Shown here one piece after another: positions 3,604-32,764 of a stretch of 64,000 nucleotides of DNA. Position numbers and translations under genes: made by a program. The notes below the pieces were generated by a model, which saw nothing but the letters and a program-made list of their open reading frames with translations, was not told the DNA's origin and searched no databases. How positions within the stretch are numbered: position 1 is the stretch's first letter; each line of letters opens with the position of its first letter. The DNA is taken from the NCBI RefSeq assembly GCF_001020565.1, contig NZ_LDAS01000001.1:3124520-3188519 (forward strand), read 5' to 3'. The DNA comes from Maribacter thermophilus. Its GTDB lineage: Bacteria > Bacteroidota > Bacteroidia > Flavobacteriales > Flavobacteriaceae.

Positions 3604-3652
3604 GAACAAATAGGATCAAGGTTAAAAAAATCTTGTTGCTACTATATTAGTG

Positions 3653-3682
3653 AAAAACCCATCAGGAGCTGATGGGTTTTTT
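3653..3682. terminator. Bidirectional intrinsic terminator
   Basis: Inverted repeat ACCCATCA / TGATGGGT with a 5-nt loop, flanked by an A-run on the left and a T-run on the right. It can therefore end transcription of the M14 peptidase gene and of the convergent TauE/SafE gene. Confidence 0.85.
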
Positions 3683-3704
3683 ATTGCGAAAATTTGAAAA
3701 TGTT

Positions 3705-4442
3705 TTATCCTGTCATGATCAATATGGCACCCAAAGCGGTAAGGGCTAAAATCATTTTGCGAAAAAAGACTTCATTTATCAACTTAATGATACGGATACC
3801 TACAAAAAAACCTAAAAATATACCGGGCAACAATTTCAAGTTTAGAACCAACGATTCCTGTGAAATGGTTTCCCAAACAAAAATATGAAAGGGAAGCTTT
3901 ATGATATTAACGATTAGAAATAGCCAAGCGGCCGTACCTATAAAATGATTTTTTGGCAATCGCATGGCCAAAAAATAAATATTGGAAAAAGCACCGGCCA
4001 GGTTTCCTACCATAGTGGTGAATCCGGCAATAATACCTATGAAACTTGAAAAGGTCCAATGTGAAGGTACGGTTTTAACCTTTTTTCTGTCCCACCAAAA
4101 CATCATAAATACGGTAATGATAATGATGGTGGCCATACCAATTTTAAAAACGTCCTCTGGAAGGTCTTTTCCTGTAAACACACCAATGATCAAGCCAACG
4201 ACCATCCATGGCAATACCTTAAATACATAGCTCCATTGTGTATGGCGATGGTAATAGATCACCGCGAATACATCGGCCAAAACAAGTAGGGGTACCACCA
4301 TTCCTGTAGACTCTTTGGCACCAAAGGCCAAGGCCATAAAAGTAACATTGATTACCGCGATTCCTTTAATGCCGGCCTTGGACATACCAATGACAAATGC
4401 GGCCAAGCTTGCCAATATCCAAGATGTGAGAGAAACTTCCAT
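3705..4442 (-). CDS. Sulfite exporter TauE/SafE family membrane protein
   Basis: 245 residues, almost entirely hydrophobic, with about 7-8 predicted membrane segments. The N-terminal region has the Gly/Ser/Lys-rich turn (IGMSKAGIKGI) typical of the TauE/SafE (DUF81) family, and a second similar repeat occurs in the C-terminal half (AGFTTMVGNLAGAF). Members are inner-membrane exporters or permeases for sulfite, sulfoacetate or other small anions. The substrate is unknown here, since no sulfur-metabolism gene lies next to it. It stands alone, divergent from the symporter gene that follows. Confidence 0.85.
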   Translation of the reverse strand: MEVSLTSWILASLAAFVIGMSKAGIKGIAVINVTFMALAFGAKESTGMVVPLLVLADVFAVIYYHRHTQWSYVFKVLPWMVVGLIIGVFTGKDLPEDVFKIGMATIIIITVFMMFWWDRKKVKTVPSHWTFSSFIGIIAGFTTMVGNLAGAFSNIYFLAMRLPKNHFIGTAAWLFLIVNIIKLPFHIFVWETISQESLVLNLKLLPGIFLGFFVGIRIIKLINEVFFRKMILALTALGAILIMTG

Positions 4443-4533
4443 TTATATTGTTAAAGACGAAATAGGTTTCGTCATGAAAGAACAAAAATATCCTAATTTA
4501 TTTTATCTTTAGAAGCTAACAAACAACCAAACG

Positions 4534-6345: not shown

Positions 6346-6359
6346 TAAATGTCTGTGTG

Positions 6360-7445
6360 ATGAGAGAAAGAATCCTATCCGTAGATATTTTCAGGGGAGC
6401 TACCATTTTATTAATGGTATTGGTGAACACACCTGGTACATGGTCTAATGTGTACGCTCCTTTTTTGCATGCCGATTGGCATGGATACACGCCTACCGAT
6501 CTGGTCTTTCCGTTTTTTCTGTTCATTGTTGGCACCTCTATTGTATTTTCTTATCAAAATAGGGAGGTTGGGTATGATACTTATAAAAAGATTCTCATTA
6601 GAACCCTAAAGCTAATTGGGCTAGGACTTTTCTTGGGGGCCTTTTTAATAAGGTTTCCTTTTATAAAAGCTTGGGAGAGCATACGTTTTCCGGGAGTGCT
6701 CCAAAGAATCGGGGTAGTCTTTTTCTTTGCCTCTATATTGTTTATCAATTTTAAATGGAAAACACTAATAGGTATTGCCATTACCTTACTAATTTTATAT
6801 TGGATATTAATGACATTGATACCAGTGGATGGTGTCGCTTCCACTTTGGAAAGAGCCCCTAATAATTTGGCCAATTGGTTGGATGTTAAGGTTTTTGGTT
6901 CACATAACTATAAGCCCGATTACGACCCAGAGGGCTTGCTAAGCACCGTTCCTTCTATCGTAAGTTCTTTATTAGGAATTTTTACTGGATTGATACTGAC
7001 CTCAAAACAAGAAAAAAAAGCTACCATTTTAATGGGTATTGGGGGTAGTTTTTTAATAATAGGGCATTTGTGGGATATGGTGTTTCCAATAAACAAAGCA
7101 TTGTGGACCAGCAGCTTTGTGCTGGTAACTGCAGGGTGGGCCAATCTTATACTTGCCTTGATATATTATTTAACGGATATAAGAAAAATAGAGTTTGGAA
7201 GTATTTTCAGGTATGCCGGGGCCAATGCCATTGTGGTATACTTTCTTTCTAGTTTTATTGCCAAGGTAATGGGGCAGATAAAAGTGGGGGATACGTCGTT
7301 GCACGGATGGCTTTTTAAAACTATATATGTGCACGATACCATTTCAATGGAGCTGTCATCGTTGCTATATGGTTTGACCGTCGTGGCCTTTTATAGTTTG
7401 GTGGCCTATGTACTTTATAAGAAAAAGATCTTTATAAAAGTGTAG
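6360..7445 (+). CDS. NagX/HGSNAT-like membrane acyltransferase (DUF5009)
   Basis: 361 residues, about 10 membrane segments. The N-terminal motifs DIFRGATILLMVLVN and TPTDLVFPFFLFIVGTS are those of the COG4299/DUF5009 family, related to human heparan-alpha-glucosaminide N-acetyltransferase and bacterial NagX. FPGVLQRIGVV is the next conserved block. I chose the ATG that starts MRERILSVDIFRG. A start 45 bp upstream is open but would overlap the symporter gene and adds residues not typical of the family. It is co-transcribed with the SSS symporter. It may act on a sugar or cell-envelope glycan; the activity in bacteria is not firmly known. Confidence 0.82.
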   Translation: MRERILSVDIFRGATILLMVLVNTPGTWSNVYAPFLHADWHGYTPTDLVFPFFLFIVGTSIVFSYQNREVGYDTYKKILIRTLKLIGLGLFLGAFLIRFPFIKAWESIRFPGVLQRIGVVFFFASILFINFKWKTLIGIAITLLILYWILMTLIPVDGVASTLERAPNNLANWLDVKVFGSHNYKPDYDPEGLLSTVPSIVSSLLGIFTGLILTSKQEKKATILMGIGGSFLIIGHLWDMVFPINKALWTSSFVLVTAGWANLILALIYYLTDIRKIEFGSIFRYAGANAIVVYFLSSFIAKVMGQIKVGDTSLHGWLFKTIYVHDTISMELSSLLYGLTVVAFYSLVAYVLYKKKIFIKV

Positions 7446-7466
7446 AGACCAAAAAGTTTTGTATAC

Positions 7467-8051
7467 CTAGCGTTGCATTAATTTGGCAACGTACTTGCCT
7501 ATGACATCAAACTCTAGATTTACGATAGTACCTTTTTTGTATGTGTTGAATCGGGTGTGTTCGTAAGTGTACGGAATAATAGCTACATCAAAGGTGTTTT
7601 TTCCTGAATTTACTACCGTAAGGCTGGTACCATCAATAGTAATAGAGCCTTTCTCGATAGTGGGGTTTCCGGTAGCATCATCATACTTAAAAGAAAAGAT
7701 CCAACTTCCGTTTTCTTCTTTTATTCCAATACATTCACCTGTTTGGTCCACATGACCTTGTACAATATGACCATCCAGTCTGGACCCCATGATCATGGCA
7801 CGCTCCAGATTTACCGGGTCTCCTGGCTTTAAATTTCCAAGGTTGGTTTTTTTTAAGGTCTCGTCGATTGCCGTAACCGTATAATTATTGCCCGATATAG
7901 CAACTACCGTAAGACAAACACCGTTATGGGCTATACTTTGGTCAATTTTGAGTTCTGGGGTAATAGAGGCTTCAATAGTTAAATCCAAATTACCTCCATG
8001 GGCTTCAATAGAAGTAACCTTGCCCAATGTTTCAATGATACCGGTGAACAT
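7467..8051 (-). CDS. ribE: Riboflavin synthase, alpha chain
   Basis: 194 residues, matching the usual length. The start MFTGIIETLGKV is diagnostic. The protein is the expected duplicated lumazine-binding beta-barrel: repeat one at about residues 1-95 (with SIAHNGVCLTV) and repeat two at about 96-190 (with GSITIDGTSLTV). It dismutates two 6,7-dimethyl-8-ribityllumazine molecules into riboflavin and the pyrimidinedione precursor in the cytoplasm. It is divergent from pdxA with a gap of 60 bp. A TAnnTTTG-type -7 box (TACCTTTG on the minus strand, 8095-8102) lies upstream, but without a good -33 element. Other rib genes are not in the window. Confidence 0.95.
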   Translation of the reverse strand: MFTGIIETLGKVTSIEAHGGNLDLTIEASITPELKIDQSIAHNGVCLTVVAISGNNYTVTAIDETLKKTNLGNLKPGDPVNLERAMIMGSRLDGHIVQGHVDQTGECIGIKEENGSWIFSFKYDDATGNPTIEKGSITIDGTSLTVVNSGKNTFDVAIIPYTYEHTRFNTYKKGTIVNLEFDVIGKYVAKLMQR

Positions 8052-8111
8052 GTGTCGTTTAATTTAAGTAATTTTGATGATTGAAATTTGATTACAAAGG
8101 TACAAGATATA

Positions 8112-9158
8112 ATGGAGGAAAAAGGGAAAATAAGGTTAGGTATCTCCATCGGGGATTTGAACGGTATCGGCTGTGAAGTAGCATTGAAAACTTTTGGGGA
8201 TGCCCGAATGTTGGATTTTTGCACTCCAATAATTTTTGCTTCCAACAAGACTATTTCAGGGCAACAAAAGGCTTTGGGACTTAATATTGCCTTTAATGGA
8301 GTACATGATGCATCAAAGGTGGTAGAGGGCAAGCTGAACATTGCAAATGTATGGAAGCAAGTACCTAAAATTCAATTTGGCCAAGCGACGAAAGAAGCGG
8401 GCGAATTTGCCATACGGTCTTTAAAGGCCGCTGTTGACGCTTTAAAAAAAGGAGATATAGATGTTTTGGTAACGGCGCCGATAAATAAAAACAATATTCA
8501 ATCGGAAGAATTTAACTTTCCGGGCCATACCGATTATTTGGCGCAAGAACTTGAAGGCGAAAGCCTGATGTTCATGGTAACCGATACACTTAAGGTTGGT
8601 TTGCTTACCGACCACGTAGCGGTAAAGGATGTATCTAAGACCATCGTGCCCAGATTGGTGAGAGACAAAATTAATACCATAGAAAAATCCTTGATGATGG
8701 ATTTTGGTATTAGAAAACCAAAAATTGCGCTATTGGGAATTAATCCCCATAGTGGCGACAATGGTGTAATCGGAAAAGAAGATGATGAGGTGTTGAAGCC
8801 GGTCATCAAAGAAATGGCAAATACAGGACATTTGGTGTTCGGGCCCTATTCGGCCGATAGCTTTTTTGGTTCGGATGCCTATAAGAACTTCGATGCCATA
8901 TTGGCCGCGTATCATGACCAAGGCTTAATTCCGTTCAAAACCCTTTCTTTTGGTCGTGGAGTTAATTTTACGGCAGGTCTCGACAAAGTGAGAACTTCCC
9001 CAGACCATGGCACGGCCTACGAGATAGCAGGCAAAGGGGAGGCCGACCATAGCTCTTTTAAAGAAGCGGTGTTTATGGCCTTAAAAATTTATAAGAACAG
9101 GACAGAATATTTGGAACTGACGAAAAATGTCTTAAAAAAGCAACGGGTAAAACGGTAA
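8112..9158 (+). CDS. pdxA: 4-hydroxythreonine-4-phosphate dehydrogenase
   Basis: 348 residues from the ATG I prefer (MEEKGKIRLGISIGDLNGIG); an in-frame TTG 24 bp upstream is possible but unneeded. It oxidises 4-phosphooxy-L-threonine with NAD+ in the pyridoxal 5'-phosphate pathway. Metal-ligand and substrate motifs are visible: FPGHTDYLA, ALLGINPHSGDNG, AAYHDQGLIPFK and TSPDHGTAYEIAGKG, in the order expected for PdxA. It heads the run yceD-rpmF-fabH-accBC, but a strong promoter downstream means those genes need not depend on it. Confidence 0.96.
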   Translation: MEEKGKIRLGISIGDLNGIGCEVALKTFGDARMLDFCTPIIFASNKTISGQQKALGLNIAFNGVHDASKVVEGKLNIANVWKQVPKIQFGQATKEAGEFAIRSLKAAVDALKKGDIDVLVTAPINKNNIQSEEFNFPGHTDYLAQELEGESLMFMVTDTLKVGLLTDHVAVKDVSKTIVPRLVRDKINTIEKSLMMDFGIRKPKIALLGINPHSGDNGVIGKEDDEVLKPVIKEMANTGHLVFGPYSADSFFGSDAYKNFDAILAAYHDQGLIPFKTLSFGRGVNFTAGLDKVRTSPDHGTAYEIAGKGEADHSSFKEAVFMALKIYKNRTEYLELTKNVLKKQRVKR

Positions 9159-9211
9159 TACCATTTTATTTCTTTGCAAAATAAGTTATGAAGATAAATA
9201 GTTGATAACTA

Positions 9212-9241
9212 TTGGCGGTTATTAAAATAATAGTATCTTTG
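9212..9241 (+). promoter_or_regulatory. Bacteroidota-type promoter for yceD-rpmF
   Basis: TTG at 9212-9214, exactly 19 bp spacer, then TATCTTTG at 9234-9241. This matches the TTG-N19-TAnnTTTG consensus of Bacteroidota housekeeping promoters. It lies about 45 bp before the yceD start codon. Confidence 0.75.
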
Positions 9242-9286
9242 CACCCGCCTTTTATGGTAATGATTTAAAATTAAGAGTTGTAAGTG

Positions 9287-9817
9287 ATGAAGCAAAAGGA
9301 GTTCAACATTCCTTTTTCGGGATTGAAACAGGGGAAGCACGACTTTAATTATAAAATCGAGAATAAGTTCTTTGAATCTTTTGGTTACGACGAATTTGAT
9401 GCAGTAGATGTACAGCTAAACGTTGTGCTGAACAAAACCAGCACCATGATGGAGCTAGATTTTGACGCTGCCGGAACGGTGAACGTTAATTGTGATCTTA
9501 CGAGCGAACCGTACGACCAACCTATAAGTGGAACGCTTCAGTTGGTAGTAAAGTTTGGTGAGGAATACAATGATGATGATGATGAGATATTAATATTGCC
9601 GCATGGCGAACATCAGGTGAACATTGCCCAATACATTTATGAAATGATTATACTGGCGGTTCCCCAAAAAAGAGTTCACCCCGGTATTTTAGATGGCACA
9701 TTAAAATCAGAAGCGTTGAACAAGCTTGATGAGCTTCAACCAAAGGACAAAAAAAATAATAAAGACGATAACGATCCCAGGTGGGACGAATTAAAAAAAC
9801 TATTAACGGATAAATAA
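9287..9817 (+). CDS. yceD: YceD/DUF177 family protein (L32-associated)
   Basis: 176 residues, acidic C-terminus (DDDDE stretch and a Lys/Asp-rich tail). Members of DUF177/YceD are almost always found directly upstream of rpmF, as here (8-bp gap). They are linked to 23S rRNA processing and large-subunit assembly. The Bacteroidota forms lack the canonical zinc cysteines and none are seen here apart from one Cys. I start at the ATG (MKQKEFNIPFSGLKQGKHDF) rather than at the GTG immediately before it. Confidence 0.85.
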   Translation: MKQKEFNIPFSGLKQGKHDFNYKIENKFFESFGYDEFDAVDVQLNVVLNKTSTMMELDFDAAGTVNVNCDLTSEPYDQPISGTLQLVVKFGEEYNDDDDEILILPHGEHQVNIAQYIYEMIILAVPQKRVHPGILDGTLKSEALNKLDELQPKDKKNNKDDNDPRWDELKKLLTDK

Positions 9818-9825
9818 GGTTATAA

Positions 9826-10023
9826 ATGGCACATCCTAAAAGAAAGATTTCCAGAACTAGGAGAGACAAAAGAAGAACGCATTATAAAGCAGTTGCACCT
9901 ACATTGGCTACTGATTCAACGACAGGTGAAATGCATTTATACCATAGAGCACACTGGCACGAAGGTAAATTGTACTACAGAGGCCAAGTATTGGTAGATA
10001 AAACCGAAGAAATAGAAGCTTAA
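9826..10023 (+). CDS. rpmF: 50S ribosomal protein L32
   Basis: 65 residues, basic. The N-terminus [18 protein letters not shown] is the L32 signature. The zinc-binding cysteines of some L32 proteins are absent (no Cys), as in the zinc-free form common in this phylum. It is co-transcribed with yceD and followed by a strong terminator. Confidence 0.97.
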
Positions 10024-10046
10024 TATAGCTTCACGACCTTATATAT

Positions 10047-10080
10047 AACTCCCACTTCCAAGAAGTAGGGAGTTTTTTTT
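10047..10080 (+). terminator. Intrinsic terminator after rpmF
   Basis: Stem ACTCCCACTT / AAGTAGGGAGT with a short loop and one bulge, followed by eight T. It closes the yceD-rpmF unit. Confidence 0.85.
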
Positions 10081-10249
10081 CACCTATATCTAGCCATAGG
10101 GCGACCATTAAATTTTACAATCAATTTTAACATAAAGGGATTAAATTTTTCAAAAACCCGTTGTTTTGAGGAAAAAAGTCGACTAAAATCACTAATTTTC
10201 ACCACTTTTGACGTGTTTTTGAACGTTTTCACCTGAATGCAATTAAAAT

Positions 10250-11245
10250 ATGACCAAAATTACGGCAGCGATTACAGCTGTAGGAGGCTATGTTCCCCAG
10301 TTTGTCCTCACCAATAAAATGTTGGAGGAGATGGTAGAAACGAATGATGAATGGATTACTACCAGAACGGGTATTAAAGAGAGGAGAGTCTTAAAAAAGG
10401 AAGAAGGGGAAGGTACCTCATATCTTGCAATTAAGGCTGCTACCCAATTAATCGAAAAAAAGAAATTAGATCCGGCAGAAATAGATTTGATTATGGTTGC
10501 AACGGCAACACCAGACAGCATGGTTGCCTCTACGGCCGCTTTTGTAGCGTCAGAGATAGGTGCTGTTAATGCTTTTGCATATGATCTATTGGCAGCTTGC
10601 TCCAGTTTTCTTTTTGGCATGTCCACGGCGGCCAGTTATATAGAGTCCGGACGGTACAAAAAAGTCTTGTTGATAGGAGCGGATAAAATGTCATCTATTA
10701 TAGATTATACGGATCGTACCACTTGTATCATTTTTGGAGATGGTGCAGGGGCAGTATTGTTCGAACCGAATACGGAAGGCCTAGGGCTTCAAGATGAATA
10801 TTTAAGGTCAGATGGATCGGGCAGGCAGTTCTTAGGTATGGAAGCAGGAGGTTCTTTGATGCCGGCAACCGAACAGACCGTAAAAGATAGAAAGCATTAT
10901 ATTTTTCAAGATGGCAAAACAGTGTTCAAGTTCGCTGTTTCCAATATGGCGGATGTTGCAGAAAGAATAATGAAAAGAAACAATTTAACAGATGAAGATG
11001 TTTCTTGGTTGGTGCCGCATCAGGCCAATAAGCGTATTATCGACGCTACGGCAAACCGTATGGGACTCGACCATTCTAAAGTATTGATGAACATACAACG
11101 TTACGGTAATACTACCTCGGCAACGTTACCTTTATTGTTGAACGATTACGAAGACCAAATAAAAAAAGGAGATAATCTTGTTTTTGCTGCCTTTGGAGGT
11201 GGCTTTACCTGGGGGTCCATTTATTTAAAATGGGCCTATAATTAA
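10250..11245 (+). CDS. fabH: 3-oxoacyl-ACP synthase III (FabH)
   Basis: 331 residues, full length. It condenses acetyl- or branched acyl-CoA with malonyl-ACP to start fatty-acid synthesis. The catalytic triad is visible: Cys117 (LLAACSSFLFG), His257 (VPHQANKRII) and Asn287 (RYGNTTSAT). The N-terminus has the usual TNDEWITTRTGIKERR substrate-loop motif. It leads the fabH-accB-accC run. plsX, which often sits between rpmF and fabH in other bacteria, is missing here. A 226-bp gap separates it from rpmF. Confidence 0.96.
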   Translation: MTKITAAITAVGGYVPQFVLTNKMLEEMVETNDEWITTRTGIKERRVLKKEEGEGTSYLAIKAATQLIEKKKLDPAEIDLIMVATATPDSMVASTAAFVASEIGAVNAFAYDLLAACSSFLFGMSTAASYIESGRYKKVLLIGADKMSSIIDYTDRTTCIIFGDGAGAVLFEPNTEGLGLQDEYLRSDGSGRQFLGMEAGGSLMPATEQTVKDRKHYIFQDGKTVFKFAVSNMADVAERIMKRNNLTDEDVSWLVPHQANKRIIDATANRMGLDHSKVLMNIQRYGNTTSATLPLLLNDYEDQIKKGDNLVFAAFGGGFTWGSIYLKWAYN

Positions 11246-11275
11246 TTAGACAACCAACGAAAAACATATTTAACC

Positions 11276-11761
11276 ATGGATATTAAAGAAATACAAAGCC
11301 TTATTAAATTTGTCGCAAAATCTGGAGCCAGCGAAGTAAAATTGGAAACCGATGAGATAAAGATTACCATACGAACGGGTAGTCTTGGTAATAATGAGCC
11401 AACTTATGTTCAATCTATACCTATGGCCCAAGCTCCGGTAGCCCACGCAGCTCCTCCGCAAGAGGCACCTTCGGCTCCAGCCAAATCTACTGAGCCGGAA
11501 AAGAAAGAGGACGATTCCAAATATATAACTATCAAATCCCCTATAATTGGAACTTTCTACAGAAAACCATCACCTGACAAACCTGCCTTTGTAGAGGTCG
11601 GTGACAAGATTTCATCAGGAGATGTACTTTGTGTTATCGAGGCAATGAAATTATTCAACGATATAGAATCTGAAGTCTCTGGTACTATTGTCAAAGTCTT
11701 GGTCGATGATGCCTCGCCTGTAGAGTTTGATCAACCATTATTCTTGGTAGACCCAGCTTAA
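11276..11761 (+). CDS. accB: Acetyl-CoA carboxylase biotin carboxyl carrier protein
   Basis: 161 residues. Architecture is typical: N-terminal helix pair (residues 1-40), a Pro/Ala-rich linker (about 50-80), and the C-terminal biotinyl domain. The biotin attachment site is Lys125 in [10 protein letters not shown]. It carries CO2 as carboxybiotin between AccC and the carboxyltransferase. It lies 30 bp after fabH and 71 bp before accC. Confidence 0.96.
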
Positions 11762-11832
11762 ATTGGTTTAACCCAGATCATTGGTCATATGCCAATGTCC
11801 AGAATTTAAGATTTACACTAAAATATCAAGAG

Positions 11833-13185
11833 ATGTTTAAAAAAATATTGATTGCAAATAGGGGAGAAATCGCTTTACGTGTTATCCGTACTTGTAAGGA
11901 AATGGGGATAAAGACCGTAGCTGTTTACAGTAAGGCAGATGAAGAAAGTCTTCACGTACGTTTTGCGGACGAAGCCGTGTGTATAGGGCCAGCTCCAAGT
12001 AGTGAATCGTATTTGAAGATACCTAATATTATTGCTGCGGCAGAAATTACCAATGCCGATGCCATACACCCTGGATATGGTTTTCTTTCTGAAAACTCAA
12101 AATTCTCTAGGATCTGTGCAGAGCACGACATAAAATTTATTGGTGCCTCAGGAGATCAAATAGATCGTATGGGGGATAAGTCTACGGCAAAAGAAACCAT
12201 GAAAAAGGCCGGGGTACCTTGCGTTCCTGGATCCGATGGTTTGTTGAAAGATGTTGAAGACGCTAAAAAAGTGGCCAAAAAGATGGGCTATCCCGTAATG
12301 ATCAAAGCCACTGCCGGTGGAGGGGGAAAAGGCATGCGTGCCGTGTGGGGCGAAGATGAGATGGAAGAGCTTTTTGAAAGTGCCGTACAAGAAGCAACTG
12401 CTGCTTTTGGTAATGGTGGCATGTACATGGAGAAACTGATCGAAGAGCCTAGGCATATAGAAATACAGATCGTTGGTGATCAATATGGCAAGGCGTGTCA
12501 TCTTTCTGAACGTGATTGCTCTATTCAACGACGCCATCAAAAACTGACCGAAGAAACTCCTTCTCCGTTTATGACCGATAAATTAAGGGAAGAAATGGGG
12601 AAAGCTGCGGTCAAGGCGGCCGAATATATAAAATATGAAGGTGCCGGTACAATCGAGTTTTTAGTGGATAAACACCGTAAATTCTATTTTATGGAGATGA
12701 ATACCCGTATTCAGGTAGAGCATCCCATCACAGAGCAGGTCATAGATTACGATTTAATACGTGAACAAATATTGGTGGCCGCGGGTGTTCCGATTTCTGG
12801 AAAAAATTATTTGCCTAAACTGCACTCCATAGAGTGTAGGATCAATGCCGAAGATCCTTATAATAACTTTAGGCCATCTCCAGGTAGAATAACTACTTTG
12901 CACACACCGGGAGGCCATGGGGTGCGTATGGATACACACGTGTATAGCGGATATAGTATTCCGCCAAACTATGACTCTATGATAGCCAAGTTGATCACAA
13001 CGGCACAGACAAGAGAAGAAGCCATCAATAAGATGAAACGCGCTTTGGACGAATTCGTAATCGAGGGTATAAAAACCACGATTCCTTTTCACAGACAGTT
13101 AATGGACGATCCCGATTATTTGGCAGGCAATTATACCACTGCCTTTATGAACGATTTTAAGATGGATCCTCCACCTAAAGAATAA
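11833..13185 (+). CDS. accC: Acetyl-CoA carboxylase, biotin carboxylase subunit
   Basis: 450 residues, the usual length. The N-terminal [20 protein letters not shown] block, the ATP-grasp glycine loop [12 protein letters not shown], and [16 protein letters not shown] with the catalytic Arg/Glu cluster all match AccC. It carboxylates the biotin on AccB using ATP and bicarbonate. It is the last gene of the unit, followed immediately by a long perfect hairpin. Confidence 0.97.
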
Positions 13186-25237: not shown

Positions 25238-25909
25238 ATGGGTAAGTTATATTTGGTGCCAACACCAATAGGCAATTTAGAGGATATTACCTTAAGGGCC
25301 ATACGTATTTTAAAAGAAGTAGACCTAATTCTTGCGGAAGATACAAGAACCAGCGGCAAACTTCTTCAGCATTTTGACGTTGGTACTCCCATGCAAAGTC
25401 ATCATATGCACAATGAGCATAAAACGGTTGCCAATATCGTAAATAAACTAAAACAAGGCGCATCCATTGCCTTGGTTTCAGATGCTGGTACACCTGCTAT
25501 TTCCGACCCTGGATTTTTATTGACACGTGCTTGTGTAGAAGCCGATGTAGAGGTAGAATGCCTTCCTGGTGCCACTGCTTTTGTGCCTGCTTTGGTAAAT
25601 AGTGGATTACCCAACGATAAGTTTGTATTTGAGGGGTTTTTACCGGTAAAAAAAGGACGTCAGACACGATTAAAATTATTGGCGGAAGAACCTCGGACCA
25701 TCATTTTTTACGAATCTCCACATAAGTTGGTAAAGACACTTACCAATTTTGAAGAGTATTTTGGTGCGGACCGTCCTATTTCCGTTTCAAGGGAATTGAC
25801 CAAATTATATGAAGAAACAATTAGGGGAACGGTACGAGAGGTTTTAAAACATTATACCGAAAAGCCTCCAAAAGGAGAAATAGTAATCGTTGTTGGGGGA
25901 AATAAGTAA
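25238..25909 (+). CDS. rsmI: 16S rRNA 2'-O-ribose C1402 methyltransferase
   Basis: 223 residues. The start GKLYLVPTPIGNLEDITLRA and the blocks AEDTRTSGKLL, VSDAGTPAISDPG and PGATAFVPALVNSGLP are typical of RsmI in the tetrapyrrole-methylase fold. It uses S-adenosylmethionine to modify C1402 in the ribosomal decoding centre. The protein is shorter at the C-terminus than in proteobacteria, which is usual for this phylum. Confidence 0.95.
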   Translation: MGKLYLVPTPIGNLEDITLRAIRILKEVDLILAEDTRTSGKLLQHFDVGTPMQSHHMHNEHKTVANIVNKLKQGASIALVSDAGTPAISDPGFLLTRACVEADVEVECLPGATAFVPALVNSGLPNDKFVFEGFLPVKKGRQTRLKLLAEEPRTIIFYESPHKLVKTLTNFEEYFGADRPISVSRELTKLYEETIRGTVREVLKHYTEKPPKGEIVIVVGGNK

Positions 25910-25915
25910 AGATTG

Positions 25916-26938
25916 TTATTGACCAATAAACTCTTTATCACTCAATGTTTTCAAAAATGAGATGAGGTTATTTTTCTCCTCGTCCGTTAATGATATTCTA
26001 TTATCGTTATCTTTAAGAATGGGGTCAAGATTATCCGCCTCGAGAACACCATTGCTTAAATAGTCCAACAGATCTTTTAGGGTAGCGAACTGTCCAAAAC
26101 TTCCATATGGGGCCGTATACTCAATGTTGCGTAATGAAGGTACCCGAAAACTCATATAATCTTTTATGTCTCCTGTAACCCTGCTTCTACCAGCCTCTTC
26201 GCTATTCGAATTTAATGGAAAACCAATATTTCTAAAGCTCTGGTCCGTAAAGAGTTCTGTGCTGTGGCAACTGATACATTTTTCTTTAAAAACTGCATAC
26301 CCTTGGGCTTCCTCTTCGGTGAAGGTTTCACCTTCTCCCCTTTTTACTTTGTCATATTTACTATTGGAAGATATCAATGTATATTCATACTGGGCAATAC
26401 TGTTGTAGATTCTATCAGGGGTAATCTCTTCGTCACCAAAGGCCTTATAGAATAATTCAATATAATCTTCATCATCTTCAATTTTGCCTATCACTTCAAG
26501 AATGGAAGAATCCATTTCTTCGTGCGTAATAATGGGTACCAATGGTTGGTCTTCTAACTTAAGTTTACTTCCGTCCCAGTTATAAAATTGCATAAACGCC
26601 ATGTTTTGGATAGGGGGAACATTCCTTAGGCCTATCCTGTTTTCGATTCCGATGGCTTTTTTATTATGGTCCGAAAAGGCGTTTTTCTGTATATGGCATG
26701 TAGAACACGATATAGTATTGTCAGCGCTTAATTTATTGTCGAAGAATAGTTTCTCGCCCAATTCAATTCCATATTGTGTTGGTAGATTGTTATATACCGC
26801 ACTGTTCAGTTCCGGAAAATCGGACGGAATATTCAATGACACCTCTGGATTGTCGAAAGCAACAAGCTCAAGATTGTCATCATTGCTACAAGATGCCAAT
26901 AGTAATACAAAAGCAACAGTCCTTATTAAATTTTTCAT
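25916..26938 (-). CDS. Di-haem cytochrome c peroxidase family, MbnH-like lipoprotein
   Basis: 340 residues. Signal with lipobox LASC (Cys17) anchors it in a membrane facing the periplasm or surface. Two haem-binding motifs are present: CSTCH at 78-82 and CISCH at 221-225, spaced as in the CcpA/MauG superfamily. Conserved FRVPSLRNIEYTAPYGSFG lies after the second haem. The gene directly follows an MbnP-like gene (70 bp), the pairing that in methanobactin operons defines MbnH, which oxidises a Trp of MbnP to kynurenine. Plain peroxidase activity is the alternative. It is the last gene of the copper-locus run. Confidence 0.85.
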   Translation of the reverse strand: MKNLIRTVAFVLLLASCSNDDNLELVAFDNPEVSLNIPSDFPELNSAVYNNLPTQYGIELGEKLFFDNKLSADNTISCSTCHIQKNAFSDHNKKAIGIENRIGLRNVPPIQNMAFMQFYNWDGSKLKLEDQPLVPIITHEEMDSSILEVIGKIEDDEDYIELFYKAFGDEEITPDRIYNSIAQYEYTLISSNSKYDKVKRGEGETFTEEEAQGYAVFKEKCISCHSTELFTDQSFRNIGFPLNSNSEEAGRSRVTGDIKDYMSFRVPSLRNIEYTAPYGSFGQFATLKDLLDYLSNGVLEADNLDPILKDNDNRISLTDEEKNNLISFLKTLSDKEFIGQ

Positions 26939-27008
26939 TGGGTATCTATTTTGGAAACCACTATAAAGAGCCGTTATGAGCTTAGCCCATAACGGCCTTC
27001 ATTTATAT

Positions 27009-27872
27009 TTAGTTTTCTACGGCGGTTATAGAGAACATTCCAGTAATATCAGTATCACCGTTACCGCCTATGTTGTCCACAAACTTCATCATCTCTGTGG
27101 CCGTATGTGCACTTGGGGTGGCATTGTTGGTAATATCGGTTGTAGAAACCAATGTGATCGTATAGCTATTTCCGCTCAACAAATAATCAAAATCCGCTTT
27201 GATCTTAATTTTGGGAGAACCACTACCTACAATAGCGTTTGTAGGAAGATCCAAGGTAATGTCCCTATAAGCATCAACACCTTGGGTATAACTTCCTTCT
27301 TCACCCTCAATGGTACTACCGGTATGTATAGAAAGTTCTTTGTTGTCGGTGTCATAAAACCCTTCAATTTTTGTAAAACGATACCCTGTTCCCCATTCCC
27401 AGTGCATTTGGGTATCGTTCGCTCCGGCAACGGCATAAAAATCGGGAAAACTGGCCTGGTCTAAGTTGTTTAACTCGGTTTTTACACCCAATCCAAATTT
27501 TATCTGAACATATTCATCAGAAGGAATATCACTTAAAACATATTGCAACGTGGCCTCTTTAGATTGGTCAACGACAGTAGCACCTTTATCCAAATCGTTT
27601 ACGTTATAAGGTATTTCGGTACCATCTTCTTTTATAAGACGAATGTTGCTTATTACATATTTTAATTCTGAAAAGTGGTGTACCTGACCTGCATCGGAAG
27701 TGTGTACGGTAGCTTCTGATGAAGTGGCATCGCCCAGAACGATTGTATTATCCTCAAAAGTGTTGTTGAATTCCAAGGTTACATTATTGGCAACCGGAAC
27801 ATCATCATCGCTACAAGACATAAAGCCGAGCACTATAAGGGATATTAAAAGATACCTTCTTGAGTTTTTCAT
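27009..27872 (-). CDS. MbnP-family copper-binding lipoprotein
   Basis: 287 residues, signal with lipobox FMSC (Cys20). The centre carries the family pattern M-x-W-x-W-x2-GY-x-F-x3-EG at residues 156-171 (Met156, Trp158, Trp160), followed by an IHTGS element with His183. In characterised MbnP/CorA/MopE proteins this region holds a kynurenine-containing copper site made by the partner MbnH. The N-terminal half is beta-rich with HH at 65-66. It lies between the di-haem gene and the TonB receptor, all in one direction with short gaps. Copper binding is inferred from homology, not seen. Confidence 0.82.
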   Translation of the reverse strand: MKNSRRYLLISLIVLGFMSCSDDDVPVANNVTLEFNNTFEDNTIVLGDATSSEATVHTSDAGQVHHFSELKYVISNIRLIKEDGTEIPYNVNDLDKGATVVDQSKEATLQYVLSDIPSDEYVQIKFGLGVKTELNNLDQASFPDFYAVAGANDTQMHWEWGTGYRFTKIEGFYDTDNKELSIHTGSTIEGEEGSYTQGVDAYRDITLDLPTNAIVGSGSPKIKIKADFDYLLSGNSYTITLVSTTDITNNATPSAHTATEMMKFVDNIGGNGDTDITGMFSITAVEN

Positions 27873-27920
27873 TGTTTTGATTTTTAATTGTTAATAATTG
27901 TTCTTTTTTGTTATCTATGT

Positions 27921-29906
27921 TTATAAATCGATTTTTAAGGATGTAAAAACATTACGCCCCATTCTTGGGATATTACCCCAGTCTGCATAAGTGCTATAGT
28001 AAGTATTGAATATATTTTCGGCACCTACCTGTAGTACGGTTTTATGATCTTTGATGTGAAAAGTATAATCGGCCGACACATTCCAGTTAGTGTATGCCGG
28101 GGTTTCATCTTCCCCATATTCCGGACTGTAGTCTACCTGTTTTAAATCGCCGTTCAAGGAGGTTAGAAACCCGAATTTTCCATAAGAAAAATGTAGGGAA
28201 GTCTGGTAGCTTAGCGGGCGTATAAAGGGTAGGTTGTTTTTGTTCTCATCCAACCCCCGTGCATAGGTTAAGCTTCCTTTCCAGTGCAAATCCTGTAAAA
28301 TGGCGTAACTACCGTTCAGTGAAAAATTGAATAATGTGGCGTGGTCTAAAGAAGTGTATCCTTTTACACCCACCGATTGGTAGTTCATGGGGCTACCTGT
28401 ACTTAAAATTCTTCCTATAATGTAATCTTGTATATAGAAATAGTTTGCCTTGGCCTGTATACTTGCTCTTTTGTTCTTAAAACCGGCACTGGCATTTACT
28501 TCGTAAGAAACCTCATTTTTCAGGTCCGGATCACCTATATAATCATAACGGTCAAAACTGTTGTAGATATAATAACCGTACCCCTCCGATACCGAAGGTG
28601 CCCTATGCCCGTATCCGCCACCGACAGAAAAGTCGAAACCGCTCATATTCAGTTGATAGCTGGCATAAATATTTGGTAGAAATCGGGTCTTTTTTTGTGG
28701 AGCGCCCGGATGAAAAATCCAATTGAATTCCACATATTTCGAATAGTTGTAATTTAACCCAAGGGTACCACCAAAATTTAACTGGCTTATGTTGGAGACA
28801 TCCAGTGAATTGCTCATGGAAAGACCGGCATAACTTGTTGTAACCCAAGGCCAGCTATAGGCGAACATGGTGCGCTCGCTTCGGTCTTGAGGGTACATCC
28901 TCATTTCTGCGATAGACAAGTTGTTGTATGCGTTTAATTGTACTTCAGAGGCATAATCGTCTTTTTTGAAGTTGACCTTGGAAACAAGGCCGTACGTGGT
29001 GCTCCATCCTGGCATGTCCATGTGCACAAGGTTCTCTGGCCGTGTGGTGTCGTCCATATAATGCTCAATGGCGTTGAAATAGATTTTGGTGTCCCAAACC
29101 TTTATAGGTCCGTCCTCATAAAAACGCTTATACGCCACTGAGGTAATAAGCGCCCTTGATAGCGATAGGTCCATTGGTAGTGCAGGGTAACCAACATCTT
29201 TGGCCTTGTCAAAAATGGCATCTACCCTTACAGATGACAATGGGCTCGTCTTGTAGGCCACCCCCAACGACGCATTGAATTTTTTGTATTGAGAGTGCTC
29301 TACTTCGTCGTTGTTGCCGTCGGTATAGTTTTGCGCCCTTCGGTAAGAGACACTACCGTCCACAACCAGCTTATCGCCAGAGTAGGAGAGTTTACCAAGG
29401 TTAAAAAATTGGTCGTTGTTAAACTCATAACCGGTCTGATAGCCACCGTTCCATTTTTTATTGAGCCCAAATGAAGTACTCTTCCTTTTAAGGTTGATAC
29501 TTCCTGCTACGGTCGCCCCGTGCATACTTCCCTCTTGACCAGACTTTATGTCTATATCGGAAAGGTTGTTACTTTCTACATACGAGGTTACGGGATCCAT
29601 CTTGTCCGTACAGGCCCCGAAAATATGCATACCGTCAATGGTCACGGTAGAACGCTCGGTACTCATGTTGTTCAATAATGGTTCCCACGCATAGGCACCG
29701 CGTTTAATAAAGCTTATGTTGTCGGAAGACGCCAAAAATTCATCGACCGAAACGGCCATTTTCATTTCCGTTTCAATTTTCTTTTTCTTGGCGGCAATAA
29801 CAATTACTTCATCTAAGGCCACATTCAAGGTGTCCTTTTTTATCGGCGTATTTTGAGCATTTGCGAATAGTCCCAATAAAAATATAGCCAGTATTATTCG
29901 TTTCAT
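27921..29906 (-). CDS. TonB-dependent outer-membrane receptor, OprC/NosA-like (copper)
   Basis: 661 residues with a Sec signal (ends FANAQ). Plug domain at about 30-140, barrel beyond, last residues FTSLKIDL as expected for BAM recognition. The plug has TIDGMHIFGACTDKMDPVT: Cys99 and Met103 form a CxxxM like the copper site of OprC, and MDPVTSYVES resembles the OprC/NosA plug. A barrel loop has VHMDMPGW (His295, Met296, Met298), close to the second half (HxM) of that site. There is no N-terminal carboxypeptidase-like domain. It sits 3 bp after the YtkA-like lipoprotein gene and 48 bp before mbnP. Copper is the best-supported substrate. Confidence 0.88.
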   Translation of the reverse strand: MKRIILAIFLLGLFANAQNTPIKKDTLNVALDEVIVIAAKKKKIETEMKMAVSVDEFLASSDNISFIKRGAYAWEPLLNNMSTERSTVTIDGMHIFGACTDKMDPVTSYVESNNLSDIDIKSGQEGSMHGATVAGSINLKRKSTSFGLNKKWNGGYQTGYEFNNDQFFNLGKLSYSGDKLVVDGSVSYRRAQNYTDGNNDEVEHSQYKKFNASLGVAYKTSPLSSVRVDAIFDKAKDVGYPALPMDLSLSRALITSVAYKRFYEDGPIKVWDTKIYFNAIEHYMDDTTRPENLVHMDMPGWSTTYGLVSKVNFKKDDYASEVQLNAYNNLSIAEMRMYPQDRSERTMFAYSWPWVTTSYAGLSMSNSLDVSNISQLNFGGTLGLNYNYSKYVEFNWIFHPGAPQKKTRFLPNIYASYQLNMSGFDFSVGGGYGHRAPSVSEGYGYYIYNSFDRYDYIGDPDLKNEVSYEVNASAGFKNKRASIQAKANYFYIQDYIIGRILSTGSPMNYQSVGVKGYTSLDHATLFNFSLNGSYAILQDLHWKGSLTYARGLDENKNNLPFIRPLSYQTSLHFSYGKFGFLTSLNGDLKQVDYSPEYGEDETPAYTNWNVSADYTFHIKDHKTVLQVGAENIFNTYYSTYADWGNIPRMGRNVFTSLKIDL

Positions 29907-29909
29907 TGC

Positions 29910-30833
29910 TTAAAATAATATGTCGATATATAGTTCACTTTTCTCTCCCTCGATGCCTGGAGTAAACTCGGTAGAAACCTCGGTACCTTTGATGGTCTGT
30001 CCATCTTCATCCTGTAGAATAAAGTTCAATGTCCAGTTTCCTGTCATGGTATAGTTCACGACCCCGTGATATAAACCATCACTTTGTTGTGTTAGGTCCA
30101 CATTGTTGGGCGAAGAATGGTTGCCCATCGAAGGTTCCGGCATTCTAGGATCTAACAGTAAGGTGTGGTTTTGTACTATGGAATATGAAAACTGCGATGG
30201 GTCGGGAAAAGTTCCGGCGGGATCCGTGGGTGGGTTGTATTTATAGATACCGGCAACCAAGTCGTTTTCTGCAACACTTGGGCTTTGGGGCGAGATCAGG
30301 GCAATAAAATATTGCTCGTTGTCATTGCCCGTAAACGCCGTCATGTTCAGGTTCAGGTTCGTTTGTTCCTCAACAGTGATGGTATGATCGATCATGTACG
30401 ATTGATCATTGTCTACAAAGCCAATGTACAATTGCCAACTTACCGTTGAATCGCTCTCATCGGTAAACACGGCATACCCCTTGTAATATTCCTCTGTTGC
30501 ATCATAGGGCAAATTGTATTCATGAGGACAAGAGACCTTATTGCCGTTGACATCTGTCATTATGGGTAAAAAAGTAACCTCCGAATTTTCGAGGTCACCA
30601 TTGGCCTGTGTATTGGTAATCTTTAAGTGAATCTCGTTATAGCCCTTATATAAAGAACCGTTCAATGCCTCTATACTAATGGTGTAATCTCCACTGGTTA
30701 TAGAGGTTACTTCTTTAAAATCAATATATTCTGTGGTTTCTGTACTTATTTCAGCCTCATAATCCGTTTTGTCTATGGTGCAAGAAGCAACCACAACAAA
30801 CACTGCAATTACATACAAGTGTAAAAGTCTCAT
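29910..30833 (-). CDS. YtkA-like lipoprotein of the copper locus
   Basis: 307 residues, lipobox VASC (Cys18). It has two immunoglobulin-like halves. The first starts near residue 48 (YTISIEALNGSLYKGYNEIHLKI split around GYNEIHLKI), and the second near residue 200 contains DPRMPEPSMGNHSSPNNVDL then GVVNYTMTGNWTLNF, a Met/His pattern characteristic of YtkA/CopC-like domains. Such domains are often periplasmic or surface metal carriers. Cys147-type thiols are few. It precedes the TonB receptor by only 3 bp, so it likely passes metal to or from the receptor. Family assignment is by pattern. Confidence 0.75.
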   Translation of the reverse strand: MRLLHLYVIAVFVVVASCTIDKTDYEAEISTETTEYIDFKEVTSITSGDYTISIEALNGSLYKGYNEIHLKITNTQANGDLENSEVTFLPIMTDVNGNKVSCPHEYNLPYDATEEYYKGYAVFTDESDSTVSWQLYIGFVDNDQSYMIDHTITVEEQTNLNLNMTAFTGNDNEQYFIALISPQSPSVAENDLVAGIYKYNPPTDPAGTFPDPSQFSYSIVQNHTLLLDPRMPEPSMGNHSSPNNVDLTQQSDGLYHGVVNYTMTGNWTLNFILQDEDGQTIKGTEVSTEFTPGIEGEKSELYIDILF

Positions 30834-31152
30834 CTATTGCCTGTTTAATTAAAACTGTTGAAAAAAAGGTAGCGTTAAGTGCGGGAACAGTGCCCATTTA
30901 GAAATAAATGGGATGTTCGGGCCTTTCGACGGCAATGATTGAAAATACTGTCTTTACCGCTACAAAATGGAAATAGAAAATCTACAAAGAGTCACCATAA
31001 AACTTAAGCAGATGTACGCTATGGTCTGGTTACCATACATATATTTTTAATACATGCCTATCACAAGCGTATATAAGCGCATATGACCAAAAGTAATCTT
31101 CGGCAAAACACATTTACGGCGGCTTGTAAAACTTCTATTTTCTGAATAGGAA
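30834..31152. other. 319-bp non-coding gap with a strong hairpin
   Basis: I find no credible small gene on either strand. The main structure is an imperfect hairpin at 30885-30918: arms CCCATTTA / TAAATGGG around a GAAA loop, extended by GAACA / TGTTC below a small asymmetric bulge. There is no T-run directly after it in either direction, so it is not a clear terminator. It would fall in the 5' leader of the YtkA-like gene if transcription starts upstream. Confidence 0.5.
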
Positions 31153-31524
31153 TTAAATGAGGGGGGGATGAAAAACAAAGCCCATATAATCGAACTTGTA
31201 CAGTTCGTTGTACGGAAATGCTATTTTTTCCTTTTGTTCTTTTAAGAAAGGTGAAATGTAGTCAGAGTTGATTTCTTGAAAGTAAACTATGGAATATTCC
31301 GTAGCTATAGAATGATTTTTTTCATTGCCCTTTTCGGAGTCGGAATCGGAAGCCTCTGCCAATTTTTTCATCAGATAGCATTTTCCATTACATTCTAACT
31401 CGGGTTTTTCCCTGTTTACACAAAGTTCGTTCTTAATGTAATCGTAGAAAGCGACATACTCCATAAATGGAATTAATGGCTTGGAGAACAAGAATAAAGA
31501 CAATATGATCGCTGCCGTTTTCAC
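31153..31524 (-). CDS. Small secreted/membrane protein with CNGKC motif
   Basis: 123 residues. The first ~22 residues are a hydrophobic signal or anchor. Then comes YIKNELCVNREKPELECNGKCYL (written here as ELC, then ECNGKCYL), with Cys35, Cys45 and Cys49. The ELC-N-x2-KPxLxCNGKCxL pattern recurs, to my knowledge, in small Bacteroidota proteins found next to copper-type TonB receptors and cytochrome peroxidase genes. The tail is charged then hydrophobic. It is likely the first gene of the copper locus although a 319-bp gap follows. A thiol-based metal or redox role is plausible, not shown. Confidence 0.72.
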   Translation of the reverse strand: MKTAAIILSLFLFSKPLIPFMEYVAFYDYIKNELCVNREKPELECNGKCYLMKKLAEASDSDSEKGNEKNHSIATEYSIVYFQEINSDYISPFLKEQKEKIAFPYNELYKFDYMGFVFHPPLI

Positions 31525-31673
31525 ATAACAAAGGTTTGTATTTTTTTAAAATTTTCCTAATGAAAAACGATTTATAATAGCCTTTGAATTGATTCTTAAC
31601 AAAGTAGCCTAAAACAGAATATAACAGGTTTTATGACTAGATTAACATCTGTAAAAAGAGGATATTGACTTGG

Positions 31674-32276
31674 CTAATAAACAGACCCGTCATGTTTGCC
31701 CTTTTCCCATCCATGTTTTCCCAAATATTGGTCGGCACTTTCAACGGCCCCTTTTTCTATGCTTGTTCCCATAGAGTCGTTCCAACGGTTAAGGTATCCG
31801 AATAAGGAGATAACCCCAAGCATTTCAACAATCTCACCTTCATCCCAATATTTATAAAGGCGCTCTTTTATTTCTGCATCTACGGCATTTGGTACTTGCG
31901 AAGCTTGTAAAGAAAAGTCCAGTGCGGCCCTTTCTGCTTCTGAGAACGCGGGGTGCGTTCTGTATTCCCATATATTGTCCAGCTGTTCTTGCTCAGCTCC
32001 GTAACGTTCCGCCGCCCGTATGGCGTGGGCTTGGCAATATCGGCAACCTGTAGCGTTACTACTGACCCATGCGATCATCCTTTTTAAGGCAGAAGTAACC
32101 CGGCCCTCGTTCGCCATAACCGCCTTGTTGAGGTTTATAAAAGCTTTTGAAATGGCAGGTCTATGCTGCATGGTCAGAACAGAATTGGGACAAAACCCAA
32201 GTGTTTCGTTAAAGAATTCTGCCAATTTCTTGGTTTCTGGATCATGATTCGGGTCTAGAGGTGTTACCAATGCCAT
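31674..32276 (-). CDS. Carboxymuconolactone decarboxylase/AhpD-like protein
   Basis: 200 residues. An all-helical AhpD-type fold with the redox motif CRYCQAHAIRAAERYG: two Cys two residues apart and a following His, the proton relay used by AhpD-like peroxidases. The N-terminal half carries ETLGFCPNSVLTMQHRP. Members reduce peroxides or act as alkylhydroperoxide-reductase partners. It is divergent from an OsmC-family gene with a 59-bp gap, which supports a joint role in peroxide or thiol stress. Confidence 0.85.
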   Translation of the reverse strand: MALVTPLDPNHDPETKKLAEFFNETLGFCPNSVLTMQHRPAISKAFINLNKAVMANEGRVTSALKRMIAWVSSNATGCRYCQAHAIRAAERYGAEQEQLDNIWEYRTHPAFSEAERAALDFSLQASQVPNAVDAEIKERLYKYWDEGEIVEMLGVISLFGYLNRWNDSMGTSIEKGAVESADQYLGKHGWEKGKHDGSVY

Positions 32277-32335
32277 ATTATGCGCTTTTAGATTGTATTT
32301 GTAGTATTTTTGTAACCTACAAGAAACAAAAAATT

Positions 32336-32764
32336 ATGAGTACAACAAATCATATCAGCACGAAATGGTTGGGCAACATGGCTTTTGAAAGCAACAACCC
32401 ATCTGGACATTCATTAAAAATAGATATAGCCAAAGAAGACGGAGGGGATGGTAGTGGTTACAGACCTAAGGCACTGATGTTATCGGCACTGGCGGGTTGT
32501 TCTGGTTTAGACGTGGCAGCGCTTATCAAGAAAATGAAACTGGATGTGGAAGATTTTCATATCGAGACCATTGCCAATCTTACCGATGAGCACCCTAAAT
32601 ATTATGATAAAGTGGCAATAGAATACCATTTTCATGGTAAGGACCTGAACGAGAAAAAACTTCAGAGAGCTGTAGATCTTTCCGTAGAAAAATATTGTGG
32701 TGTTATGGAAATGTTCAGAAAATTTGCAGAACTGGATATCAAGACCATTTTTCACCATAATTAG
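32336..32764 (+). CDS. OsmC-family protein
   Basis: 142 residues from the ATG starting MSTTNHISTKWLGN. The open frame extends 25 codons upstream but into the neighbouring divergent gene. The second catalytic Cys motif LAGCSGLDVAALIKKM is clear and a later Cys is in VEKYCGVMEMF, giving the two-thiol arrangement of OsmC/Ohr-like peroxidases. It probably reduces organic peroxides. It lies 11 bp before recJ and may be co-transcribed with it. Confidence 0.88.
   Translation: MSTTNHISTKWLGNMAFESNNPSGHSLKIDIAKEDGGDGSGYRPKALMLSALAGCSGLDVAALIKKMKLDVEDFHIETIANLTDEHPKYYDKVAIEYHFHGKDLNEKKLQRAVDLSVEKYCGVMEMFRKFAELDIKTIFHHN

Follow-up and report, generated by a model that had tools for sequence, protein, structure and literature searches.

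A putative copper-sensing leader protein at the head of a conserved OprC-like and MbnPH-like locus in Maribacter thermophilus

Described copper leaders and the Maribacter locus

Two described leader proteins, CruR and CutF, come closest to the element studied here: the first gene of a five-gene locus in Maribacter thermophilus. The locus lies in a 64,000-nucleotide window (assembly GCF_001020565.1, contig NZ_LDAS01000001.1, positions 3,124,520 to 3,188,519), to whose numbering all window coordinates refer. In the bfrG/crtA operon of Bordetella pertussis, translation of CruR is described as arresting at a RAPP motif when copper is absent, so that transcription reaches the receptor gene; the arrest is relieved by copper at a CXXC motif (PMC9426467, PMC12914433). 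CruR operons elsewhere are reported to contain OprC-type receptors and MbnPH-like genes (PMC9426467). CutF is exported co-translationally, carries a CxxxC motif 45 residues from a proline motif and pauses for longer in the presence of copper (PMC9973294); it is reported to raise copper oxidase expression upon copper (PMC9973294, PMC8456105). A list of CutF-like proteins from 2023 contains 5,334 entries, 19% of them from Bacteroidota, with TonB-like proteins as frequent neighbours (PMC9973294).

The locus is on the minus strand and comprises, in order of transcription, a gene for a small protein with a CNGKC motif, a 319-nucleotide gap, and genes for a YtkA-like lipoprotein, a TonB receptor, an MbnP-family lipoprotein and an MbnH relative. 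All five open reading frames (ORFs) are found at the place and on the strand given in a preliminary description of the window. That description counted the CNGKC protein simply among the five structural gene products, whereas the evidence favours a leader that acts in cis to regulate the four remaining genes. The leader ORF (31,153–31,524) has a GTG start and encodes 123 residues. We consider it probable that the locus is a copper-starvation operon headed by a nascent-chain copper-sensing leader of the CutF/CruR kind.

The kinds of component are already known: MbnPH pairs have been published far beyond methanobactin producers, and cruR operons with OprC and MbnPH genes, CutF-like proteins of Bacteroidota and OprC-like receptors of flavobacteria have all been described. 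The arrangement, and this variant of the sensor, are less known; in open-access full texts (subscription papers, preprints and supplements being outside the scope) we found no paper describing the five-gene block or the leader family. What is new concerns the first gene, for which a nascent-chain copper sensor is the best reading of the sequence.

A putative leader family with a cysteine motif and C-terminal prolines

The leader consists of a hydrophobic N-terminus, a C-x9-CxGxC element, a divergent linker of near-fixed length and two prolines at the C-terminal end. In the window protein, the proposed copper-sensing motif CNGKC occupies codons 45–49 (31,378–31,392, minus strand), and the proposed arrest motif HPP follows 70 residues later at codons 119–121 (31,162–31,170, minus strand). 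The terminus reads HPPLI-stop, which places HPP two residues from the stop codon. In an alignment of 33 leaders, C35, C45, G47, C49, L51, P120 and P121 are invariant. Mean identity is 66% in the cysteine region, 49% at the C-terminus and 18% in the linker, the length of which is 68.4 ± 1.8 residues. The 77 leaders that come first in their loci (see below) use all four proline codons (CCT 61, CCA 37, CCC 28 and CCG 28), which argues that the peptide, rather than the RNA, is what is kept.

To escape circularity, a profile was built from residues 1–57 only, which hold no part of the C-terminus, and four duplicate loci were dropped. This profile recovered 243 complete ORFs, which encode 240 different proteins and fall into 71 clusters at 50% identity (a count made because some genomes were present in both locus sets). 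PP lies within the last 15 residues in 241 of them, compared with 23 of 838 background ORFs of 100–160 residues and none of the 320 genes neighbouring leaders; in 217 leaders it is followed by just 2–4 residues. The two leaders without PP at this position are a 70-residue ORF that is perhaps frame-shifted (L216) and one with PPP further in (L226). The spacing between the cysteine motif and PP is 63–71 residues in 238/241 leaders; odd values of 127 and 168 probably arise from an earlier CxxxC counted in over-long ORFs. CxxxC is present in 126/126 ORFs matched by a second profile (A1), but this profile holds both motifs and its count is partly circular, so that 241/243 is the fair one. Ahead of CxGxC, a 17-residue stretch with a hydropathy of at least 1.4 was found in 119/122 and 115/122 leaders, judged by hydropathy only.

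Leader homologues occur in 183 of 299 Flavobacteriaceae genomes. A profile match was obtained in 155 of 395 Bacteroidota genomes, where many of the distant matches cover the N-terminal part only and the C-terminus was checked in fetched loci alone. The M. thermophilus genome (4.05 Mb, listed completeness 100%) has a single homologue, the second match reaching only E 1.9, and family scans with the window leader returned nothing noteworthy from Pfam or NCBIfam.

The leader is placed as a regulatory element would be. A gene on the same strand follows within 1,000 nucleotides in 121/122 leaders, the last leader being at a contig end; the distance in the window is 319 nucleotides. The first downstream proteins of the 121 leaders were represented by 85 in a family scan. 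A group of 51 included 25 MbnP, 6 YtkA, 6 TonB plug and 9 Phenol_MetA_deg proteins, and TonB models were matched by 32 of the remaining 34, including 13 with a match to the copper model TIGR01778. At least 20 of 52 more distant receptors also have a leader directly upstream (coordinates compared by eye). In 80 loci from named genomes, the best 80 of 549 relatives of the window receptor, a leader precedes the block in 77, and contig ends lie close upstream in the remaining three (L158, L181 and L212). This first leader has [HRK]PP in 76/77 cases, with a spacing of 65–71. In 34 of the 80 loci, a second leader is found between the receptor gene and mbnP, a median of 4 nucleotides after the former and 58 nucleotides ahead of the latter; 32 of these 34 are of a PPP type with a spacing of 63–65. 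Where the second leader is missing, mbnP begins a median of 31 nucleotides after the receptor gene (n = 46; 48 nucleotides in the window). Two leaders stand in tandem in front of the block in eight of the named loci. A leader directly before mbnP is as expected of a cis-acting element, and the distribution would follow from the joining of two modules that each brought a leader along, with later loss of the second leader in the lineage of the window.

Some of these features would also suit a small periplasmic protein of the ordinary kind that acts in its own right, as a chaperone or store for copper, with the operon under a conventional transcription factor: CxxxC is known to bind copper, a chaperone was the role first proposed for CutF (PMC8456105), and the hydrophobic N-terminal stretch suggests export. 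We regard this as unlikely. It leaves unexplained the terminal PP in 241/243 proteins and a linker that keeps its length at an identity of only 18%, as well as the long gap behind the gene and the second copy right before mbnP in 34/80 loci.

The published rules for CutF-like proteins (fewer than 150 residues, PP in the last 15, CxxxC and a same-strand gene within 1,000 nucleotides; PMC9973294) describe the window leader, and the family fits this definition as far as tested, the comparison being by these rules only. With CruR, as described, the leader shares a small first ORF, a cysteine pair, a PP about three residues from the C-terminal end, and a long gap followed by a TonB copper receptor. 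In contrast to the 45 residues between CXXC and RAPP of CruR, CNGKC and HPP are 70 apart; the family further differs in having CxGxC and a third cysteine instead of CXXC, [HRK]PP or PPP instead of RAPP, and hosts among Bacteroidota. The family shares its layout with both CruR and CutF and, by the tests made, belongs to neither.

The putative copper proteins downstream

The four-gene block that follows the leader is real, and its conservation is far beyond chance. PF20243, the Pfam family of MbnP, matched in 139/299 Flavobacteriaceae genomes, from which 60 MbnP loci were fetched. Eleven of these encode an MbnP near that of the window (phmmer >300 bits), and in all 11 the five genes are present with order and strand unchanged. 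A receptor-profile search of the 299 genomes, run independently of MbnP, gave 12 scores above 1,200 bits, namely the window and those 11, with the next best at 689; the 12 five-gene loci from which this profile (A2) was itself made had, however, been found via MbnP. The 80 named loci came from a scan seeded on the receptor peptides ACTDKMD and [IV]EHYMDD, which makes 80/80 circular for these motifs and not for the neighbouring genes: YtkA, TonB receptor, MbnP and MbnH are encoded on one strand in all 80. The hosts belong to Flavobacteriaceae, Sphingobacteriaceae and Weeksellaceae-type genera, with one metagenome-assembled genome from Chitinophagaceae; where family names go beyond the record titles, they are our presumed assignments. 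The nearest receptor among the best 80 is that of Maribacter sp. MMG018 (L155), at 98% identity. A search for the gene order in other Bacteroidota, as suggested in the preliminary description, therefore found it conserved. The accompanying idea that the five genes always travel together holds for the four structural genes of the window subtype (80/80 of the best 80 of 549; 11/11); leaders are also found by themselves ahead of MbnPH genes or of other TonB receptor genes. Among the fetched loci, L022 (genome G297, 6,934–12,220) contains, one after the other, two leaders and two MbnP–MbnH pairs that differ in subtype.

The receptor (27,921–29,906, minus strand; 661 residues) was predicted to be OprC-like, and this is borne out: a search of the PDB at E ≤ 0.01 returned OprC entries only, the best at 9e-10. 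CTDKM at codons 99–103 (29,598–29,612, minus strand) and HYM at codons 282–284 (29,055–29,063, minus strand) align with the CxxxM and HxM copper ligands of Pseudomonas aeruginosa OprC. These ligands are kept in 12/12 receptors of the aligned five-gene loci. The same metal motif has been found in an OprC-like receptor of Bizionia argentinensis (PMC11213822), which likewise aligns at both positions. The likeness to OprC is local, extending over only about 300 residues, and the operon partners differ. Against the copper-receptor model TIGR01778 the protein scores 82.9 bits, below the cut-off of 472.45.

These matches bear on what the receptor imports. It could take up copper on a chalkophore that other organisms produce, the copper–chalkophore complex then being processed by MbnP and MbnH, or its true substrate could be another metal or haem. 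Methanobactin operons, too, contain MbnP/MbnH and a TonB receptor, B. pertussis CrtA is described as importing chelated copper (PMC12914433), and weak matches to haem-receptor models were obtained at 80 and 63 bits, below cut-offs. However, the receptor keeps the OprC ligands for bare copper, and its score with the copper model is about equal to that with the haemoglobin model (82.9 and 79.9 bits); we find this reading quite improbable. As the preliminary description had it, no methanobactin biosynthesis gene is seen: PF05114 (MbnB) has no match in the genome, MbnA and MbnC not having been searched for. A role in copper uptake that needs no methanobactin has good support from the OprC ligands and the conserved company; taken as a whole, the interpretation given in the preliminary description is partly supported.

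The YtkA-like lipoprotein (29,910–30,833, minus strand; 307 residues) scores 24.9 bits against PF13115, just under the cut-off of 25.9. The Met/His-containing stretch DPRMP-E-MGNHSSPNN is invariant in 12/12 relatives. We propose that this lipoprotein binds copper. A fold search gave just generic Ig-like matches at a template-modelling (TM) score of about 0.2 and was uninformative.

MbnP (27,009–27,872, minus strand; 287 residues) is confirmed as a member of its family, with 117 bits against PF20243 (cut-off 27). In an alignment of 22 proteins W158 and W160 are invariant and H183 nearly so. A single-sequence search of the PDB found no true match for this protein, and a profile search reached 7l6g, Methylosinus MbnP, at E 0.0034. 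For an AlphaFold model (predicted local distance difference test score 82), the six chains of 7l6g rank above all other PDB entries (E 1e-8 to 3e-7, TM about 0.5). MbnP/MbnH, CorA/CorB and MopE/SACCP share with the locus the MbnP Pfam family and fold, WxW and histidine, and an adjacent di-haem cytochrome. The window protein lacks the four-cysteine feature to which the title of PDB entry 7l6g refers: its sole cysteine is that of the lipobox, and it scores 57 bits against TIGR04052 (four-Cys MbnP), below the cut-off of 140. A tryptophan of WEW (codons 158–160; 27,393–27,401, minus strand) may be converted to kynurenine, perhaps through maturation by the di-haem protein. The acidic pair after the lipobox cysteine (SDDD) is nearly invariant in the 22 relatives, and S-acidic-acidic lipoprotein signals mark surface lipoproteins in flavobacteria. 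A surface location would fit that of CorA and MopE, both reported at the cell surface (PMC3912023). A terminator-like hairpin of 13 pairs (26,969–26,997, minus strand; a pattern match only) lies between mbnP and the cytochrome gene.

The cytochrome (25,916–26,938, minus strand; 340 residues), a lipoprotein encoded next to mbnP, has CxxCH motifs at residues 78–82 and 221–225 and scores 164 bits against CCP_MauG. Its best named model is the MbnH model TIGR04039, at 196 bits compared with a cut-off of 363; MauG, at 176 bits, is also below its cut-off. The description as a di-haem MbnH-like cytochrome is thus upheld by the haem motifs and the best model, and qualified by the score and by a different distal-haem region, which, like the missing MbnB, sets the locus apart from the known pairs. 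In an alignment of 22 cytochromes inspected by eye, 12/12 from five-gene loci (clade A7) have PYGSFG and DY[LF], whereas 10/10 other pair cytochromes have PYMHDG and a tyrosine in place of [LF]. BthA has that tyrosine too, and we take it to correspond to MauG Tyr294, the distal haem ligand. In the window protein the position is the leucine of DYL (codons 292–294; 26,057–26,065, minus strand). The protein appears to be a divergent MbnH relative whose clade lost two motifs near the distal haem; it is possible that distal ligation has changed, the haem being bound by the neighbouring Tyr293, one residue away, or differently. This altered clade makes the role of the distal-haem residues in tryptophan oxidation testable.

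Proposed mechanism and the leader–YtkA gap

In the mechanism that we consider probable, the 123-residue leader would be translated first, and its hydrophobic N-terminus would export it co-translationally. When copper is scarce, the ribosome would pause at the C-terminal HPP, just ahead of the stop codon, and the pause would keep transcription of the downstream genes going, so that the YtkA-like protein, the OprC-like receptor, MbnP and the di-haem partner are made. Copper on the nascent-chain cysteines (C-x9-C-x3-C) would relieve the pause and turn the four genes off, probably by Rho acting in the C-rich leader end and the untranslated 319 nucleotides. MbnP, perhaps matured by the di-haem protein, and the YtkA-like lipoprotein would bind copper and hand it to or from the receptor. 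The sequences themselves show the genes, their order, the motifs and their spacing, the conservation and the place of the leader at the front of operons; from these, copper binding, arrest, Rho action, polarity, periplasmic sensing and kynurenine formation are inferred.

The distance between the two motifs may set where copper is read. For CutF, about 30 residues are placed in the ribosomal tunnel and about 17 across the membrane, and a spacing of 45 corresponds to the SecY vestibule (PMC9973294). With a spacing of about 70, the cysteine motif would lie some 20 residues beyond the membrane, already past the translocon when the pause occurs, and we therefore propose that the leader reads periplasmic copper, the pool filled by the receptor. 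With slightly more doubt than belief, we extend this to a widespread and unnamed Bacteroidota family of nascent-chain copper sensors (C-x9-CxGxC, a linker of 63–71 and [HRK]PP or PPP), whose longer spacing would keep the metal site outside the translocon during the pause. Such sensors would stand first in operons of the OprC type, in MbnPH operons and in other TonB operons, and would occur twice where two modules fused. Copper sensing and import are poorly known in Bacteroidota; if true, the proposal would give a handle on copper-regulated operons in the 155/395 genomes with a profile match and test whether motif-to-motif spacing sets the compartment sensed, operons with two leaders being a natural experiment.

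The leader could also work with the polarity of CutF, copper lengthening the pause and turning on genes for copper handling or defence rather than scavenging. CutF shares CxxxC, the signal peptide and the dependence on export, and its pause is prolonged by copper (PMC9973294). The downstream genes, with the OprC-like receptor among them, are importers, which makes the polarity of CruR the likelier one. Moreover, the MbnP-family relatives CorA and MopE are reported to be copper-repressed (PMC3912023), and a long untranslated gap is a feature shared with CruR. CutF-like polarity seems rather improbable to us.

The gap (30,834–31,152, minus strand) was examined for the switch itself. Gaps after the first leader have a median length of 279 nucleotides (n = 77). 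They fold better than shuffled sequences, with a mean z of −3.5 (n = 26; −2.92 for the window gap) compared with −1.1 for upstream and coding controls; their sequence is not conserved across related loci. Rfam gave no match up to E 0.5 across 25,800–32,400. A three-way-junction RNA in the gap is suggestive only: closed by GTAGCG/CGCTAC, it would occupy 30,869–30,963 (minus strand), 35 nucleotides ahead of the YtkA start. Its stem was picked by eye in 13 loci, the window and 12 related gaps, with compensating changes in the closing stem; L166 was looked at and left out for its short stem, and MAFFT misaligns the stems. The junction is apparently restricted to Maribacter-, Formosa-, Polaribacter- and Winogradskyella-type genomes. 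A shuffle test on 73 gaps gave a mean best stem of 8.8 compared with 8.2, a weak effect overall, and in 26% of gaps no more than 1 of 12 shuffles reached the observed value. The last 120 nucleotides of the leaders are C-rich, with C−G of +0.079 (n = 122) compared with −0.026 to −0.056 at the ends of the four other genes (n = 80 each). This resembles in kind the C>G bubble of the Rho terminator of CruR (PMC9426467) and is circumstantial as a sign of Rho action.

Several observations weigh against a copper-relieved arrest leader. An intrinsic terminator was found in only 1/77 gaps (0.45 expected), and RNAalifold found no common pairs in sets of 20 and 16 gap sequences, so that the switch itself has not been located; the C-richness of the leader end may follow partly from the encoded amino acids. 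DUF2946 (PF11162), the Pfam family of CruR, has no match in the M. thermophilus genome and is not among the families matched by the 33 leaders at E ≤ 10. CruR is described as requiring RAPP (PMC9426467), for which this family has candidate [HRK]PP or PPP motifs instead. The CutF tail swapped into SecM is reported to have given no stalled band, and the polarity of CutF is opposite to that of CruR (PMC9973294). The YtkA and MbnH scores lie under their curated cut-offs. Moreover, 21 of the 34 downstream proteins scanned with TonB models have no TIGR01778 match, many of the TonB matches are not copper-specific, and nine of 51 leader-headed operons open with a Phenol_MetA_deg-family protein, not a known copper gene. 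Some leaders may therefore serve other metals.

Upstream of the leader, a gene of the carboxymuconolactone-decarboxylase family (31,674–32,276, minus strand) ends 149 nucleotides ahead of it. This gene was seen only in L155 and L031 among the fetched loci and thus lies outside the conserved block. L031, from a genome of the same genus (G075, 3,358–9,241), is a shorter leader–MbnP–MbnH locus with another MbnP subtype, a few kilobases from relatives of the carboxymuconolactone-decarboxylase and OsmC genes of the window; the neighbourhood looks as if one type of MbnP locus had been exchanged for the other.

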